Shown here piece by piece: positions 51,418 to 61,751 of a stretch of DNA of 64,000 nucleotides (position 1 is its first letter; each line of letters begins with the position of its first letter). A program made the position numbers and the translations under genes. The DNA is from Hyphomicrobiales bacterium (GTDB lineage: Bacteria > Pseudomonadota > Alphaproteobacteria > Parvibaculales > Parvibaculaceae), in NCBI GenBank assembly GCA_016124805.1, contig WGND01000003.1, forward strand, positions 496,001 through 560,000. The letters run 5' to 3'. Below the pieces are notes generated by a model. The model searched no databases. It was not told the origin of the DNA and was given only the letters and a program-made list of their open reading frames with translations.

Positions 51418-51493
<76 letters not shown>

Positions 51494-51553: not shown

Positions 51554-51586
51554 ATTTGACCATCATTTGACCACGCTATTTGACCA
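51554..51586 (+). repeat. Three ATTTGACCA direct repeats beside tRNA-Lys
   Basis: ATTTGACCA occurs at 51554-51562, 51565-51573 and 51578-51586. Short direct repeats next to a tRNA end are often arm-type integrase sites, but other uses are possible. Confidence 0.6.
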
Positions 51587-51777
51587 ATTCACTTTTTGTC
51601 CCAGCGCGTGTTCCAAATTTGTGCCTACCCGTAAACGATCTCACCGAAAATCACATACTGGAGAAAGACGTCAGCGGTGACCACATCACCTGTGCCACCG
51701 ATCAGATCACCAAAATGATTAGGGGACCGCTTCGCCATCTGCGACAGGCCGCGAGCGACATCACCGGGCTTTATTGA
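51580..51777 (+). pseudogene. Degenerate sequence in frame with the J-like gene
   Basis: An open stretch in the same reading frame as the J-like fragment, ending at TGA 51775-51777. It contains DVSGDHITCATDQI, which resembles IISGDQIIAGTVGASQ of the downstream gene, including shared bases (AGCGGTGACCA.ATC). It may be a decayed upstream part of the same gene. There is no ribosome binding site and no recognised domain. Confidence 0.3.
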
Positions 51778-51840: not shown

Positions 51841-52698
51841 ATGGCTGCTCGTAATCGTGTTCTTGCTGCTTATCGTGGGGGTGCGGACCTTGTTGTGGGT
51901 AATGGAAAGCCTATTATCAGCGGTGACCAGATCATTGCTGGCACGGTTGGCGCAAGTCAGTTGGTGGCGGGTCAGGCGGTAATCACTGAAGGTGCGCAGA
52001 TTGCTGATGCCATTATCACAAGTGCGAAGATTACCGATCTGGAAGCGCAGAAGCTTATTGCTGGTACGATTACCGCATCTGAAATTTATCTGACTGATCC
52101 AAAGTTTGAACTGGATGGCGCAGCTCAACGGATTGTTGTGAAGGACAATCAGGTGCCTGCCGTAACGCGAGTAATCTTCGGAAAGATCGGTACCGGTGAT
52201 ACGGACTTTGGTATACAGATTTTCAATGAAACGGGTGACCTGATCCTCTCCTCGGGTTCACCAATCGGTACTCATTGGGAAGATGTAATTGGTGGTCCCG
52301 AAGCACTAGCGCCGGTATCAGCCGCCGCCGCCGCCGCTCAATCGACTGCAGATACTGCAGTGGGGAATGCAGCCGCTGCTGCATTGACCTCAACCTGGGC
52401 AGGCGTGACTGGCTCTGGAAAGCCAACTGATAACGCAGACAAGACCTCTTTGAACACAGCCTATGATACTGCTCGCGTCGGTGGTGATCTTGCAGCAGCA
52501 GTTGTGCGTGCCGGGAACAAGATCACGGGTGCAAACATCGCGACGTATATGTCATCGGCTGCAATTGGTGATGCCTATATCAACAATTTGGCTGCAAGCA
52601 AGATTCTGGCAGGTACGGTTTCGGTGCAGTTGGCTTTGGGAGTTGCGGGTAAGATTTTGTTGGACGGTGCGAATAATCGCATCATCATTTCGGACTAA
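51841..52698 (+). CDS. Phage tail-tip (J-like) protein, C-terminal fragment
   Basis: A 285-residue fragment like the C-terminus of lambda-J-type host-specificity proteins. It has repeated QIADAIITSAKITDLEAQKLIAGTI-type turns, an Ala-rich stretch (SAAAAAAQSTADTA) and a final beta-rich ILLDGANNRIIISD. Intact J proteins are usually about a thousand residues, so most of the protein is missing. The coding frame seems to continue upstream to a TGA at 51775 without a start, and the ATG at 51841 has no ribosome binding site. Probably a remnant left by deletion or recombination next to tRNA-Lys. Confidence 0.62.
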   Translation: MAARNRVLAAYRGGADLVVGNGKPIISGDQIIAGTVGASQLVAGQAVITEGAQIADAIITSAKITDLEAQKLIAGTITASEIYLTDPKFELDGAAQRIVVKDNQVPAVTRVIFGKIGTGDTDFGIQIFNETGDLILSSGSPIGTHWEDVIGGPEALAPVSAAAAAAQSTADTAVGNAAAAALTSTWAGVTGSGKPTDNADKTSLNTAYDTARVGGDLAAAVVRAGNKITGANIATYMSSAAIGDAYINNLAASKILAGTVSVQLALGVAGKILLDGANNRIIISD

Positions 52699-57507: not shown

Positions 57508-58112
57508 TGCTTGGTGGCAGTAAGATGAAGATGGTCGGCCCGAGTGGTCCCCCTCCACCAGAACTTGATCCTCTAGTTTTGGTATCATCCGAAAGCAGTA
57601 GTGGGAGTGACTTTGTAATACCATCCTGCACATCTTCACAAGTTTTGGTGTTGATGGAACGAAATAGGTATAGTTCTGCGCTCCAACCACTTCGCGCTGG
57701 ATTTACGGATATTGTTAGTATTTCTAATGGTACCCGTAATCAGTCTATGCGGGTTTCCTATATCATTGGTAATACAACATTCACAATTGCAGATACAAAT
57801 TATGGTGCCGCGTATATAATTTTTGATTGTAATGGTGCTATTAATATTGCTCAAACAGATACAAATGAACAAACAACTTCCTCAACAAGCCAACCTATAC
57901 CAGCGGTTAGTGGTATAAATACCGATGGTAAGTCATGGGTACTTGCTATCAATTACGCTCCAAAGGCGTGTAACTATGTAAATGGTGCATATACATGGTC
58001 AGAAGGTTGGTGTTATAATACCGGAAACACAACTGGCAGTATTGGTTCAACGACCATGCACATGACAACTTCGGTTTATAAGTTTACTTGTGTCTTTGAA
58101 ATACGCCCATAA
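57507..58112 (+). CDS. Candidate fibre-tip / receptor-binding protein
   Basis: A 201-residue protein directly after the fibre gene (1-bp overlap). A Pro-rich start (GPSGPPPPELD) leads to a Ser/Thr/Asn/Tyr-rich beta domain without recognised family. It is the most AT-rich gene of the window, unlike its neighbours, as expected for a host-range gene exchanged between phages. Function is inferred from position and composition only. Confidence 0.62.
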   Translation: MLGGSKMKMVGPSGPPPPELDPLVLVSSESSSGSDFVIPSCTSSQVLVLMERNRYSSALQPLRAGFTDIVSISNGTRNQSMRVSYIIGNTTFTIADTNYGAAYIIFDCNGAINIAQTDTNEQTTSSTSQPIPAVSGINTDGKSWVLAINYAPKACNYVNGAYTWSEGWCYNTGNTTGSIGSTTMHMTTSVYKFTCVFEIRP

Positions 58113-58126
58113 GGAAAATAAAAACG

Positions 58127-58708
58127 ATGTATGCCAAAGTTGTTGACGATCAGCTCGAAGCCTTTCCCTATACGGACAAGATGCTTCGACTTGATAATCC
58201 AACCACATCTTTCCCAGTTGTCTTGACTGACGAGATACGTGCTGCCTTCAACATGCTTCCAGTTGCTCAAGGAACAATGCCCGCAGGCAAGAATTATGTT
58301 AGTTCATCTTGCGATAAGGTGGCTGGTGTGTGGACCGAGATTATCGCTTGGGTTGATCCAATCCCACCTAGTGTTGTTGAGCTGAAGGAATACCTTGCCG
58401 AGCTTCGGTGGGAAGCTGAGACTGGGGGTATCATGGCTTCTGGTATGTCGATTGATACCAGTCGGGAAAGTCAAGCAATGTTGACCTCAGCATATCTCCT
58501 CATGCAACGTGACCCTGAACGGGTCATCCGCTGGAAGACCCGCACAGGTACCGTCAACCTCAACGCAGAGGCAATCACATCCATTGCGGATATCGTCGCC
58601 AATCACGTACAGGATTGTTTTGACTTGGAGGCTAATACCGTTGCACTGATTGATAATCATACAATCACAACCTTTGATGAGATTGATAATCTCATCTGGC
58701 CATCGTAA
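58127..58708 (+). CDS. DUF4376 phage tail protein
   Basis: A 193-residue protein. The N-terminal 80 residues are variable; the C-terminal half fits DUF4376: VVELKEYLAELRWEAETGGI, SIDTSRESQAMLTSAYLLMQRDP, then NLNAEAITSIADIVANHVQDCFD. Such proteins usually sit just after fibre genes and may act as fibre-assembly chaperones or caps. Last plus-strand gene of the tail module. Confidence 0.72.
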   Translation: MYAKVVDDQLEAFPYTDKMLRLDNPTTSFPVVLTDEIRAAFNMLPVAQGTMPAGKNYVSSSCDKVAGVWTEIIAWVDPIPPSVVELKEYLAELRWEAETGGIMASGMSIDTSRESQAMLTSAYLLMQRDPERVIRWKTRTGTVNLNAEAITSIADIVANHVQDCFDLEANTVALIDNHTITTFDEIDNLIWPS

Positions 58709-58739
58709 GAAAAGTCCAGTCTGTTGACCGAAAAGCATA

Positions 58740-59225
58740 TTATTTAAGAGCGGTGAGGTATTGATCCAGTGTCAGACTGTATTGCTCATAGGCAGCGGTG
58801 CCATCCTTCTTGATTCCGATTGCCTTCAAGATCAGCTCGGGCACAAACCCCTCAGCCTTTGCCTGCACCTTAAGCTCCTTCAACTCATCTCGTAGGGTCT
58901 GAGCCTGGGTACGCATCTCCCGCATCGCCTTGAAGCGCCGCGTGGCCAGATCATCAGCTTGCTTCTTGTCAGGTTCGGTCGGTGTGATGCAAACCGCGAT
59001 CCCCAACAACCTTCCGGCCTCCCTTAGCTGCTCGCGACTGGTGTCTGCTTGGTTCTGCGAAATGAAGGAGTCGGCGAGTAGCTTGCGAATGCCCTTCACG
59101 GGGTAGCCCGCCTCCTTCAGCTCAGCGAAGTATTCCTTCTCGTCGCTCTTGAGAGCGTCGATCTCTTTGAGCTTCTCGTCAAATTGATCCGCATAGCTAC
59201 GGATCGCGTTTGCGTGATTGGTCAT
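58740..59225 (-). CDS. Two-domain GapR-like (DUF2312-type) phage protein
   Basis: A 161-residue, mostly helical protein. The first half (AIRSYADQFDEKLKEIDALK then EKEYFAELKEAGYPVKGIRKLL) and the second half (MREMRTQAQTLRDELKELKVQAKAEGF then VPELILKAIGIKK..LDQYLTAL) each resemble the DUF2312/GapR pattern of a coiled coil, an AKxxGF/Y turn and a K/R-rich helix. GapR is an alphaproteobacterial nucleoid protein that binds overtwisted DNA. The tandem arrangement is unusual. ATG at 59225 with GAGG 5 bp upstream; the upstream extension is not similar. Divergent from the next gene. Confidence 0.66.
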   Translation of the reverse strand: MTNHANAIRSYADQFDEKLKEIDALKSDEKEYFAELKEAGYPVKGIRKLLADSFISQNQADTSREQLREAGRLLGIAVCITPTEPDKKQADDLATRRFKAMREMRTQAQTLRDELKELKVQAKAEGFVPELILKAIGIKKDGTAAYEQYSLTLDQYLTALK

Positions 59226-59252
59226 GTGTCCTCTACGAAAAAAATTGCTTAT

Positions 59253-59307
59253 AATCGATACCCAATCGTTATTGCTGAGACAAATAAATAGTAAGCCGGT
59301 ATCGATT
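59253..59307. promoter_or_regulatory. 10-bp dyad between divergent phage genes
   Basis: AATCGATACC (59253-59262) and GGTATCGATT (59298-59307) are exact inverted copies 35 bp apart, centred in the 112-bp gap between the GapR-like gene and the plus-strand cluster. A possible operator pair; TATAAT at 59250-59255 lies at its edge. Confidence 0.5.
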
Positions 59308-59337
59308 GCGTTCCACTTAAACAGAAGGAACCAAGGT

Positions 59338-59688
59338 GTGAACCTCCAGATCAATCTCGAAGAATTTTCCGACGATCAGCTCGCTGTCTTTCACTCAATC
59401 AATCCTGAAGCGGTCGACGCCGAACGGCTTCGTCGTTTCGCGTTCGAGTCGGTCGAATACGGCATCGACGTCCTGTATGAGAACGCGCTGATCCTTGAAA
59501 AGGAGCTGGCCAATCGGAAGTCGACCCTGTTCATCACGACCGTTCTCGAACCGCTGCTCGAAACGATCCAGCGCCTGATGGTCACCAGTGGGAAGTCGAT
59601 GACCGTTCCGCCGATCAAGCCTGCTAGCAAGCCGGTGGGGGGGCGCAAGCCGCGCAAGGCAGCGGAAAAGAAGCCTGCTGATGCATAA
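59338..59688 (+). CDS. Phage protein of unknown function, Lys-rich tail
   Basis: A 116-residue protein starting with GTG at 59338, with AAGGA 9 bp upstream. The N-terminal 80 residues are acidic and helical (LEEFSDDQLAVFHSINPEAVDAERLRRF...). The C-terminal 35 residues are basic and Pro/Lys-rich (PASKPVGGRKPRKAAEKK), suggesting nucleic acid contact. No family recognised. Overlaps the next frame by 8 bp. Confidence 0.55.
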   Translation: MNLQINLEEFSDDQLAVFHSINPEAVDAERLRRFAFESVEYGIDVLYENALILEKELANRKSTLFITTVLEPLLETIQRLMVTSGKSMTVPPIKPASKPVGGRKPRKAAEKKPADA

Positions 59689-59902
59689 GCCTCGGATCAA
59701 CAACTTCGGCAACCTGCTGGCAGCACTCGCTGCCAGCAGGCTTTCTGGTGGACTTGCACAACGTCGGCGCTTCCATCAGATCGGTCCGGGTCAGAAGAGC
59801 ATCTTGAAGATTCACGAACGGGTCATCAAGCAGCGGCTCAACAACCCGACCCTTCCGCATCAGGGGAAGCGTGAATGTGCGAGGCGAGCGCGGCATGGCT
59901 AA
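59681..59902 (+). CDS. Possible small basic phage protein
   Basis: A 73-codon frame (MHKPRINNFGNLLAALAASRL...), Arg/His-rich, overlapping the genes on both sides by 8 bp each. A perfect 12-bp hairpin lies within it. The tight packing favours a gene; the hairpin and odd composition count against it. No family recognised. Confidence 0.38.
   Translation: MHKPRINNFGNLLAALAASRLSGGLAQRRRFHQIGPGQKSILKIHERVIKQRLNNPTLPHQGKRECARRARHG
59713..59740 (+). terminator. Perfect 12-bp hairpin, possible terminator
   Basis: CCTGCTGGCAGC / GCTGCCAGCAGG with loop ACTC, followed by CTTTCT rather than a full T-run. It lies 25 bp after the stop at 59688. Confidence 0.4.
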
Positions 59903-60077
59903 GACCAACAAGTTGATTTCCTGTTATGGTACCGATGAGGACCGCATCCGGGCAACCTTGGTGGCAAAGCGAGCCGGGAAGTCGATCTCAAAGCTGCTGC
60001 TTGACCACGTTCGTTCCGAGTACGAAAAGGTCTATGGGGCAGCCGATCCCCACGATGTGATCGAAACCGGAGAGTGA
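59895..60077 (+). CDS. Small RHH/CopG-like phage protein
   Basis: A 60-residue protein with a short N-terminal strand (KTNKLISCYG) then two helices (EDRIRATLVAKRAGKSISKLLLDHVRSEYEKV), the layout of ribbon-helix-helix DNA-binding proteins. ATG at 59895 with GAGG about 10 bp upstream. Followed by a strong terminator. Presumed regulator; low sequence specificity. Confidence 0.55.
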   Translation: MAKTNKLISCYGTDEDRIRATLVAKRAGKSISKLLLDHVRSEYEKVYGAADPHDVIETGE

Positions 60078-60150: not shown

Positions 60151-60486
60151 ATGTCTGTAACTCTGGCCGATATCGTTTCTACCGTGAGTCTCATCATCAC
60201 TGGCTTGGGCGCGATTGCCGCCCTCTGGTGGAAGCTTCACACGCAGATCACAACTGCTACGACGACGTTGGAGGATCGCCTGCGGGCCGATCTGGCTCCG
60301 CTTTGGGCGCGTAGTGAACAGGCCGTCCACCGTGATGAGATTGCACGGCTTGAAGGTCGTTTCGACAAGCTCGTAGAGATGAGTGAACGCGAACGAGACC
60401 GAGCCGAATCTCGCCACACAGACCTGATCCATATGCTGACCCGTGTGCTGATGAAGGATCACAATGGCCTACAATCGAATAATTGA
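60151..60486 (+). CDS. Phage membrane protein, candidate holin-like
   Basis: A 111-residue protein with one N-terminal membrane span (about residues 8-27, ending IAALWW), then a long charged coiled coil (LEDRLRADLAPL...ERERDRAESRH). It overlaps the endolysin gene by 23 bp and leads the lysis cassette. It could be a pinholin, an accessory holin or a structural protein of the DUF2730 type. Confidence 0.6.
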   Translation: MSVTLADIVSTVSLIITGLGAIAALWWKLHTQITTATTTLEDRLRADLAPLWARSEQAVHRDEIARLEGRFDKLVEMSERERDRAESRHTDLIHMLTRVLMKDHNGLQSNN

Positions 60487-60970
60487 CGCCATCATCCTGC
60501 GGGAGGGTTCCCGCTATACAAACCGGCCTAATGATCGCGGTGGGCCGACGAAGTACGGCATCACCCTCAAGAAGCTGGCCGAGTGGCGTAACCATGTGGT
60601 GATAGCAGCTGACGTGATGAACCTGACGGAGCCTGAAGCTCGCGCCATCTACACGCATGAGTTCATCGTCAAGCCTGGGTTCGATCTGGTTCAGAATGAG
60701 TCCCTACAGGAAGCTCTAATTGACTACGGCGTCAACAGTGGTCCGAGACAGGCTATCAAGACCATTCAGACGATCCTTAGTCTTGTCGTGGATGGTGTCC
60801 TTGGACCGAAGACAGTAGCAGCTATCAATGGAACAAGTGACCCTCGCAGGTTGACAAACCAGCTCTGCTGCGAGCGCCTCCGTTTCCTTGGCCGACTGGT
60901 TGATCGAGATCATAGTCAGGTTGAGAATATCTATGGGTGGATCAACCGAGTGACAGGATTTATTCGGTGA
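60464..60970 (+). CDS. Endolysin, GH108 N-acetylmuramidase
   Basis: A 168-residue peptidoglycan hydrolase. The catalytic glutamate is residue 14 in IILREGSRYTNRPNDRGGPTKYGIT, the GH108 signature (usual form EGGY). A PG_binding_3 domain follows (GVNSGPRQAIKTIQTIL...VDGVLGPKT). There is no signal peptide, so a holin must release it. The stop overlaps the next gene by 4 bp (GTGA). Confidence 0.92.
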   Translation: MAYNRIIDAIILREGSRYTNRPNDRGGPTKYGITLKKLAEWRNHVVIAADVMNLTEPEARAIYTHEFIVKPGFDLVQNESLQEALIDYGVNSGPRQAIKTIQTILSLVVDGVLGPKTVAAINGTSDPRRLTNQLCCERLRFLGRLVDRDHSQVENIYGWINRVTGFIR

Positions 60971-61221
60971 TAAAGGACGATACCCCTCCGTGGTCACCAT
61001 TCCGCAAGATCATCACTTGCGTGGCGATCTTGATCGGCACGCTCATGATCGCGCGTGGCGCATTCATGTCACCCGAGAACAGTGACACTGCAAAGGAACT
61101 GATCGCTCAGGGCGCTGACCTGATTGGTTGGGTCTTCATGTTCATCATCATCGGCGCTAGTAGCGAACGCATGGCGCTGTGGCTGCCACTCCGTACTGTG
61201 AAGGGAACACCCCCCGCATGA
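60967..61221 (+). CDS. Phage membrane protein, candidate holin
   Basis: An 84-residue protein with two membrane spans (FRKIITCVAILIGTLMIARGAF and ADLIGWVFMFIIIGAS) joined by a short polar loop, a typical holin layout. GTG start coupled to the endolysin stop, and ATGA overlap with the spanin gene. Either this or the gene at 60151 is the true holin. Confidence 0.65.
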   Translation: MIKDDTPPWSPFRKIITCVAILIGTLMIARGAFMSPENSDTAKELIAQGADLIGWVFMFIIIGASSERMALWLPLRTVKGTPPA

Positions 61222-61751
61222 ACCCCACTTGGTTGATCAAGAATTGGAAGCTGCTTACTGGCGCGGGTGTGATTGTTGCACTCGTCATTGTTGGAGCGAC
61301 CCTCTACTTCAACGGCTCTCATGCTGGGTACGACAAGAAGGTCACGGAGGACGCCAAGGCGACGGTAGAGCAGGTGAAGCAGACCCGGAAGACCGAACAG
61401 AAGAGTGTTGACATCACCCAAGTTGTGGGCATCACCACGGACGTGAAGGTCCGTTACATCTACATCAACACCAACGACCTCTTGAAGGAGACATTCAATG
61501 TCCCGCTACCTTCTCATCGCTGCGTCATTCCTGTTGGCCTCTTGCGCGTCTACAACGCTGCCGCCTCCGGTATGCCCAGCGTTCCCGACAGCTCCGGGCG
61601 TCCTGATGATTCCGACGCAGAATTTACATGCACTCAGCTCGTTGCAAATGCCATCGACAACTACGGCACAGCCCTTGTCTGGAAGTCTCAAGTAGATGGG
61701 TGGCAGGAGTGGTACGACAAGCAGTCGACACTTCACCGTGACGGTTACTGA
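61218..61751 (+). CDS. Rz-like inner-membrane spanin
   Basis: A 177-residue protein with one N-terminal membrane span (LLTGAGVIVALVIVGATLYF), then a Lys/Glu-rich helix (KKVTEDAKATVEQVKQTRKTEQKS) and a C-terminal domain. Last gene of the lysis operon, overlapping its neighbour by ATGA. The o-spanin is encoded inside it in another frame. The longer than usual C-terminus continues past the embedded gene. Confidence 0.75.
   Translation: MNPTWLIKNWKLLTGAGVIVALVIVGATLYFNGSHAGYDKKVTEDAKATVEQVKQTRKTEQKSVDITQVVGITTDVKVRYIYINTNDLLKETFNVPLPSHRCVIPVGLLRVYNAAASGMPSVPDSSGRPDDSDAEFTCTQLVANAIDNYGTALVWKSQVDGWQEWYDKQSTLHRDGY
61498..61695 (+). CDS. Rz1-like outer-membrane spanin embedded in the i-spanin gene
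   Basis: A 65-residue frame in +1 register wholly inside the Rz-like gene. It has a signal peptide ending in lipobox LLASC, then a Pro-rich mature part (TTLPPPVCPAFPTAPG), the hallmark of o-spanins. GGAG at 61487-61490 is correctly spaced before the ATG. With the Rz-like protein it would fuse the two membranes during lysis. Confidence 0.8.
   Translation: MSRYLLIAASFLLASCASTTLPPPVCPAFPTAPGVLMIPTQNLHALSSLQMPSTTTAQPLSGSLK

Follow-up and report, generated by a model that had tools for sequence, protein, structure and literature searches.

The gene and its prophage remnant

We examined P0001, a 161-residue frame on the minus strand of the window (by which we mean the whole stretch of 64,000 nucleotides that was analysed), with its ATG at 59225 and its stop codon at 58742-58740 (Table 1). 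A longer alternative frame of 204 aa would use a TTG start at 59354; this frame has a positive coding score (34.8), and the GapR matches reported below fall within its ATG-started part. P0001 is a lone gene with tail and lysis genes around it; these late-gene neighbours lie on the other strand. Terminator-like hairpins occur at four sites in 2 kb, against 1.9 expected in shuffles, and no sigma-70-type site was found in 58000-60000 (1.7 expected), a range that includes the gap between P0001 and the divergent gene.

Table 1. Features at and around the P0001 gene (window coordinates)
Feature	Position	Strand	Remarks
attL, 47 bp at 3' end of tRNA-Lys	51447..51493	+	exact repeat at window-equivalent 82264-82310 (L042:13264-13310), outside window
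Tail fibre gene with DUF4376	58127..58708	+	convergent with P0001
Terminator-like hairpin, weak	58715..58732	-	directly 3' of P0001 stop; 7 pairs, 3 G-C
CDS of P0001, tandem GapR-like protein, 161 aa	58740..59225	-	PF10073 34.9 bits, two stretches
P0001 C-half, residues 80-161	58743..58988	-	Pfam match residues 107-160; predicted helices 85-124, 129-141, 143-159
P0001 N-half, residues 1-79	58989..59225	-	Pfam match residues 6-52; predicted helices 2-38, 43-58, 64-79 (last: low confidence)
A+T-rich gap (61.6%), P0001 to divergent gene	59226..59337	.	
Possible ribosome-binding site AGAGGA	59229..59234	-	short spacing to P0001 ATG; read from sequence
116 aa gene divergent from P0001	59338..59688	+	no PHROG or Pfam family, no phage match
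Endolysin	60464..60970	+	phrog_315
Spanin-like protein	61218..61751	+	Rz-like families among its matches

The gene lies in an element of 30.9 kb at a tRNA-Lys gene, which runs from 51447 to window-equivalent 82310 (L042:13310), its two 47 bp repeats being 30.8 kb apart. Between the repeats we find a cut tail-tip-like gene at the left end (51841-52698, phrog_19445; with an in-frame stop upstream), tail fibres, two DUF4376 genes, the endolysin and the spanin-like gene, followed on the opposite strand by genes for a ribonucleotide reductase, a DNA polymerase and an SbcD-type protein. In the frames examined, which make up part of those in the element, we recognised no gene for head proteins, terminase or integrase; because of this, and because the tail-tip fragment is cut, we call the element a prophage remnant. 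The original prediction of a protein encoded by a phage therefore stands as regards its phage-derived setting, although the setting is a remnant rather than a phage. By eye, TTTGACCA-type repeats lie beside both attachment repeats (51554-51590 and L042:13177-13240); these could be arm-type integrase sites.

In its replication block the element is like Caulobacter phage Seuss and Achromobacter phage JWF, to whose DNA polymerases its own is 43% identical. When the tail-tip fragment was compared by blastp with the J proteins of these two phages, nothing matched up to E 1, and no GapR-like frame was found in either phage (E up to 0.1). A related replication block, with a polymerase 52% identical, lies near a tRNA-Arg gene in another genome of the same class (G089, C4, ~80-91 kb; L163-L167); within 80 kb around that polymerase there was no GapR-like frame (best 2.7 bits). 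Elsewhere the host genome encodes a canonical GapR, which scores 124.3 bits (119.9 bits with phrog_4212, its best PHROG).

Both halves of P0001 are related to GapR in sequence

The Pfam family of GapR-like DNA-binding domains (PF10073; earlier DUF2312/UPF0335) matches P0001 as a whole in two stretches, at 34.9 bits and E 1.2e-8 (cut-off 22.6). Scanned alone, the N-half scores 24.2 bits, over the gathering cut-off, and its stretch ends at position 49 of the 72 in the profile; the C-half alone scores 19.0 bits (E 0.0011), under the cut-off. Against the sequences in the PDB, phmmer gave eight matches to P0001, of which the six best are GapR chains (E 0.0021-0.011), all of them on the C-half; in that search no GapR matched the N-half. 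In hhalign comparisons with 20 viral GapRs, the N-half reached a probability of 92.2 (score 37.4) and the C-half 89.0 (score 34.8).

Coiled coils can produce false matches, and for this reason shuffle controls were run. The real hhalign scores are far above the maxima from 300 heptad-phase shuffles per half (21.5 for N, 20.95 for C); a further control, three natural coiled-coil-like windows (the only three found), scored under 11. Margins differ between the halves with a home-built HMM from 69 GapR frames, which gave 17.3 (N) and 19.3 (C) bits for the two domains of one frame: over 40,000 shuffles per half (20,000 plain and 20,000 heptad-phase), the N-half stands at 20.9 bits against a shuffle maximum of 16.7, and the C-half at 22.9 against 22.3, a thin margin, with 11 of its 20,000 heptad-phase shuffles reaching 15 bits. 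Other families of coiled-coil type also match P0001 weakly, such as DUF2203 (E 0.0011, under its own cut-off). The original prediction that both halves are GapR-like is thus borne out, by the two PF10073 stretches and by hhalign probabilities obtained well above shuffles. The AKxxGF/Y motif that had been proposed for each half is literal in the C-half (AKAEGF), whereas the N-half reads LKEAGY.

The best PHROG of P0001 is phrog_4212 (29.8 bits). The NCBIfam equivalog for GapR (NF052541) scores 32.1 bits, far under its curated cut-off of 140, and by these profile scores P0001 is therefore a distant relative of GapR and not the orthologous GapR itself. The two halves are also remote from each other: no alignment between them was obtained at E up to 100, and another comparison gave E 0.53. 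We reject a recent internal duplication on the first of these results.

Distribution of GapR and of the tandem form

GapR is ordinary in phages. It was found at E <= 0.01 in 156 of 50,697 phage records, at one place in each, and in at least 505 of 600 pattern-matching viral-contig stretches among the matches listed; PF10073 matches occur in 37 of the 40 genomes of the host's family or order and in 276 of the 385 of its class. The GapR of an Erythrobacter phage has been called the first in a phage genome (PMC12185513); the 156 phage records, each with a single-domain GapR, are far more than that claim suggests. Phage-borne GapR is hence already known, and what appears to be new in P0001 is that one chain carries two GapR-like domains.

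The tandem form was sought widely. A second GapR domain is present in none of 149 distinct GapR frames other than P0001 (176 loci including the window), and 80 of 80 viral loci have one domain; the surveyed frames mostly sample close relatives of GapR, so that rare or diverged tandems are possible, and the class-wide GapR places are those among the matches listed. The two-domain forms that the original prediction would have looked for in phage genomes did not appear in these searches. Viral and genome contigs were scanned by patterns, a method that can miss distant relatives. In viral contigs, patterns from P0001 or its halves gave no tandem relative (11, 19 and 10 stretches); a search with alignments gave three single-domain loci among 600 stretches listed and no tandem, and a further one gave a single one-domain locus (L168 again) out of 391 stretches. 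Genome contigs yielded none in 89 stretches, and two single-domain loci in 213. With tblastn, P0001 had one partial phage match (E 0.3) and no plasmid match. Among genomes it matched 8 of the 40 of the family (E <= 0.01), 10 of the 385 of the class and 5 of the 398 of the phylum (both at E <= 5e-4), its own genome being counted each time; a final scan of the other genome loci so matched revealed no second domain. No relative that would show the tandem form to be maintained was thus found among the loci searched, nor did we find a two-domain GapR in the literature, in a search that had most subscription papers and all bioRxiv preprints outside it.

Predicted structure and DNA-contact residues

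AlphaFold2 run on P0001 with no alignment gave a model too weak to judge the fold (pLDDT 57.7, pTM 0.45), with helices at 3-38, 43-57, 64-73, 87-124, 129-135 and 153-160. An alignment of 47 viral GapR rows, trimmed to cover the C-half, raised these values to pLDDT 81.6 and pTM 0.70 and placed the helices at the positions in Table 1. Two helix triplets are predicted in both models, the better of which used the C-half-trimmed GapR rows. Residues 1-50, which the added rows were not intended to cover, have pLDDT block means of 84-93 in the steered model; residues 51-90, which include H3 of the N-half, are weak (53-63).

Both models align over residues 1-127 with two-helix hairpins in VIA-align, as in the example of 4ilo (Z 7.4, rmsd 2.2, 92 residues). 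These hairpins come from many unrelated proteins, and a Z of about 8 for matches between long-helix hairpins can reflect mere helix packing; on our reading of these alignments, the two long helices of P0001 apparently pack against each other as a hairpin in the models. Best Foldseek E values were 2.1 for the alignment-free model and 0.9 for the second. A structural match to GapR, by which the original prediction was to be judged, was looked for in the PDB fold listings of both programs; GapR is absent from them, a result that excludes nothing, since VIA-align re-aligns Foldseek's own matches.

PMC7498317 gives the DNA-contact positions of GapR as 34, 42, 49, 56, 59, 60, 63 and 66. Basic residues occupy five of these eight in the N-half (42, 49, 56, 59 and 60), four in the C-half and seven in the host GapR, so each half lacks several of the basic contacts; in a gapless register, P0001 is identical to the host GapR at 14 of 54 and 18 of 74 positions. 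The last residues of H3 in the C-half, LDQYLTAL, retain the tyrosine and the leucine with which H3 of GapR ends, and the N-half has a 5-residue insertion and an H3 that aligns poorly with that of GapR. Three inter-subunit salt bridges are named in the same source (PMC7498317); for P0001 they give six possible pairs between the halves, one of which retains opposite charges (D at position 28 in the N-half, K at position 65 in the C-half), which may be chance.

A candidate single-chain GapR dimer unit

In GapR, each chain has one domain and the protein is a homotetramer (PMC7498317, PMC7373187, PMC6853979); two chains pair through their H1 helices, which make an antiparallel coiled coil and hold the remaining helices at its two ends, and the closed ring comprises four domains, as a dimer of antiparallel H1 dimers (PMC7498317, PMC7373187). 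The ring having four domains, one P0001 chain would supply half of it and would still have to pair; the suggestion in the original prediction of a fused version that clamps DNA with no need to oligomerise is thus not supported, and the bridging of DNA that it also raised is possible.

The best explanation, to which we give somewhat less than an even chance, is that P0001 represents the GapR dimer unit in a natural single-chain form, and that a pair of such chains closes one DNA ring. Each half would be a GapR-like H1-H2-H3 unit; the long H1 helices would pair antiparallel within one chain, as those of separate chains do in GapR, leaving the H2-H3 of the two halves to point to opposite ends. 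Two such chains might then join through H2/H3, above all through the GapR-like H3 of the C-half, and the four-domain ring so formed would enclose phage or host DNA, probably managing its topology during phage growth. We weigh for this reading the two PF10073 stretches, the hhalign scores with their shuffles, the C-half matches to GapR chains in the PDB, the helix triplets, the alignments with hairpins (a hairpin-like model fits a single-chain dimer unit), the basic contact positions and the LDQYLTAL end. Against it we weigh the C-half under the Pfam cut-off, the thin HMM margin, the fold listings free of GapR, the C-half-trimmed alignment behind the better model, the low-confidence and poorly alignable H3 of the N-half, the possibility that the hairpin matches reflect helix packing alone, the basic contacts that are lost and the fact that none of the relatives found points to a maintained tandem form.

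The fusion may be an asymmetric hetero-dimer, in which the N-half grips DNA and the C-half, with its GapR-like H3, closes or captures rings, those of host GapR among them, and by which the phage would control the places where positive supercoils are kept and relaxed; this we consider unlikely. Alternatively P0001 could act on host GapR, as the original prediction of a block on the host protein had it: one half would join host subunits via H1 or H3 and leave rings unable to close or to let go, disturbing host replication in favour of the phage. There is a canonical GapR in the host genome to be so targeted (124.3 bits), and a C-half that keeps a GapR-like H3 in a protein with several DNA contacts lost in either half would suit the part; we nevertheless think this improbable, as P0001 and the host GapR are no more than distant relatives (14/54 and 18/74 identical) and many phages simply carry a standard GapR. 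A comparably doubtful role is that of a phage dsDNA-binding protein that marks or helps late promoters instead of managing supercoils, as T4 DsbA might: PMC7824862 calls DsbA homologous to GapR and states that it might bring the RNA polymerase of the host to late promoters. The position of P0001 among tail and lysis genes agrees with such a role, whereas its being a lone gene that runs counter to its late-gene neighbours does not.

Two further readings were weighed. The fusion may be a functionless relic in a prophage under decay: the tail-tip-like gene of the element is cut and has an in-frame stop upstream, head, terminase and integrase genes went unrecognised in the part of the frames examined, and no tandem relative was found on which selection could be tested. 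An intact frame, a possible ribosome-binding site and the positive coding score of the 204 aa frame (34.8) speak against this, and we rate it a shade less probable than the two alternative roles just described. The lowest rating goes to the proposal that one half only is a true GapR domain and the other a coiled coil that is unrelated and resembles GapR by chance, although it can draw on the C-half's Pfam score when scanned alone, on the single heptad-phase shuffle of that half at 22.3 bits (22.9 real), on the N-half Pfam stretch that stops at profile position 49 and on the weak coiled-coil family matches (DUF2203, E 0.0011). It has to contend with hhalign scores well above 300 shuffles for each half, with the solved GapR sequences that the C-half matches, and with single-domain GapR-like proteins to which the N-half is 50% identical over 44 residues.

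If P0001 is a single-chain dimer unit, its value lies in what the homotetramer cannot offer: the GapR ring being a homotetramer, its subunits are not alterable singly. With a natural single-chain dimer whose halves have diverged, one could ask which subunits have to contact DNA, whether opening of the ring takes place at one interface and whether a pair of chains is enough; the phage repertoire would also gain a topology tool. Should the fusion be only a relic in a decaying prophage, it would be of little importance.

Comparison with known systems

Both halves of P0001 are like Caulobacter crescentus GapR by sequence, in the predicted H1-H2-H3 layout and in part of the DNA-contact lysines and arginines; unlike that protein, which has one domain per chain, P0001 puts two diverged domains in one chain. 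The nearest relatives found to the N-half belong to a divergent branch of single-domain GapRs: L168, on a viral contig, L174, from Azospirillum tabaci, and L175, from Skermanella aerolata. Among the matches listed, L168 and L174 are each 50% identical to the N-half over 44 residues and L175 is 40% identical over 47; unlike P0001, each has a single GapR domain. The best frame for the N-half is that of L168 and the best for the C-half is the canonical GapR of L172, which hints that P0001 arose when two GapR lineages were fused and not by a recent duplication, though sequences this short prove nothing.

T4 DsbA, which has one domain, unlike P0001, is a second point of reference. PMC7824862 describes it as a phage dsDNA-binding protein and GapR homolog. 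A parallel in setting is offered by the single-domain phage GapRs, such as Azospirillum phage Cd gp10 and Erythrobacter phage R34L1 ORF28: like them, P0001 is phage-borne and has phrog_4212 as its best PHROG, which is shared with the host GapR; unlike them, with one domain in all 156 records and all 80 viral loci, it has two.
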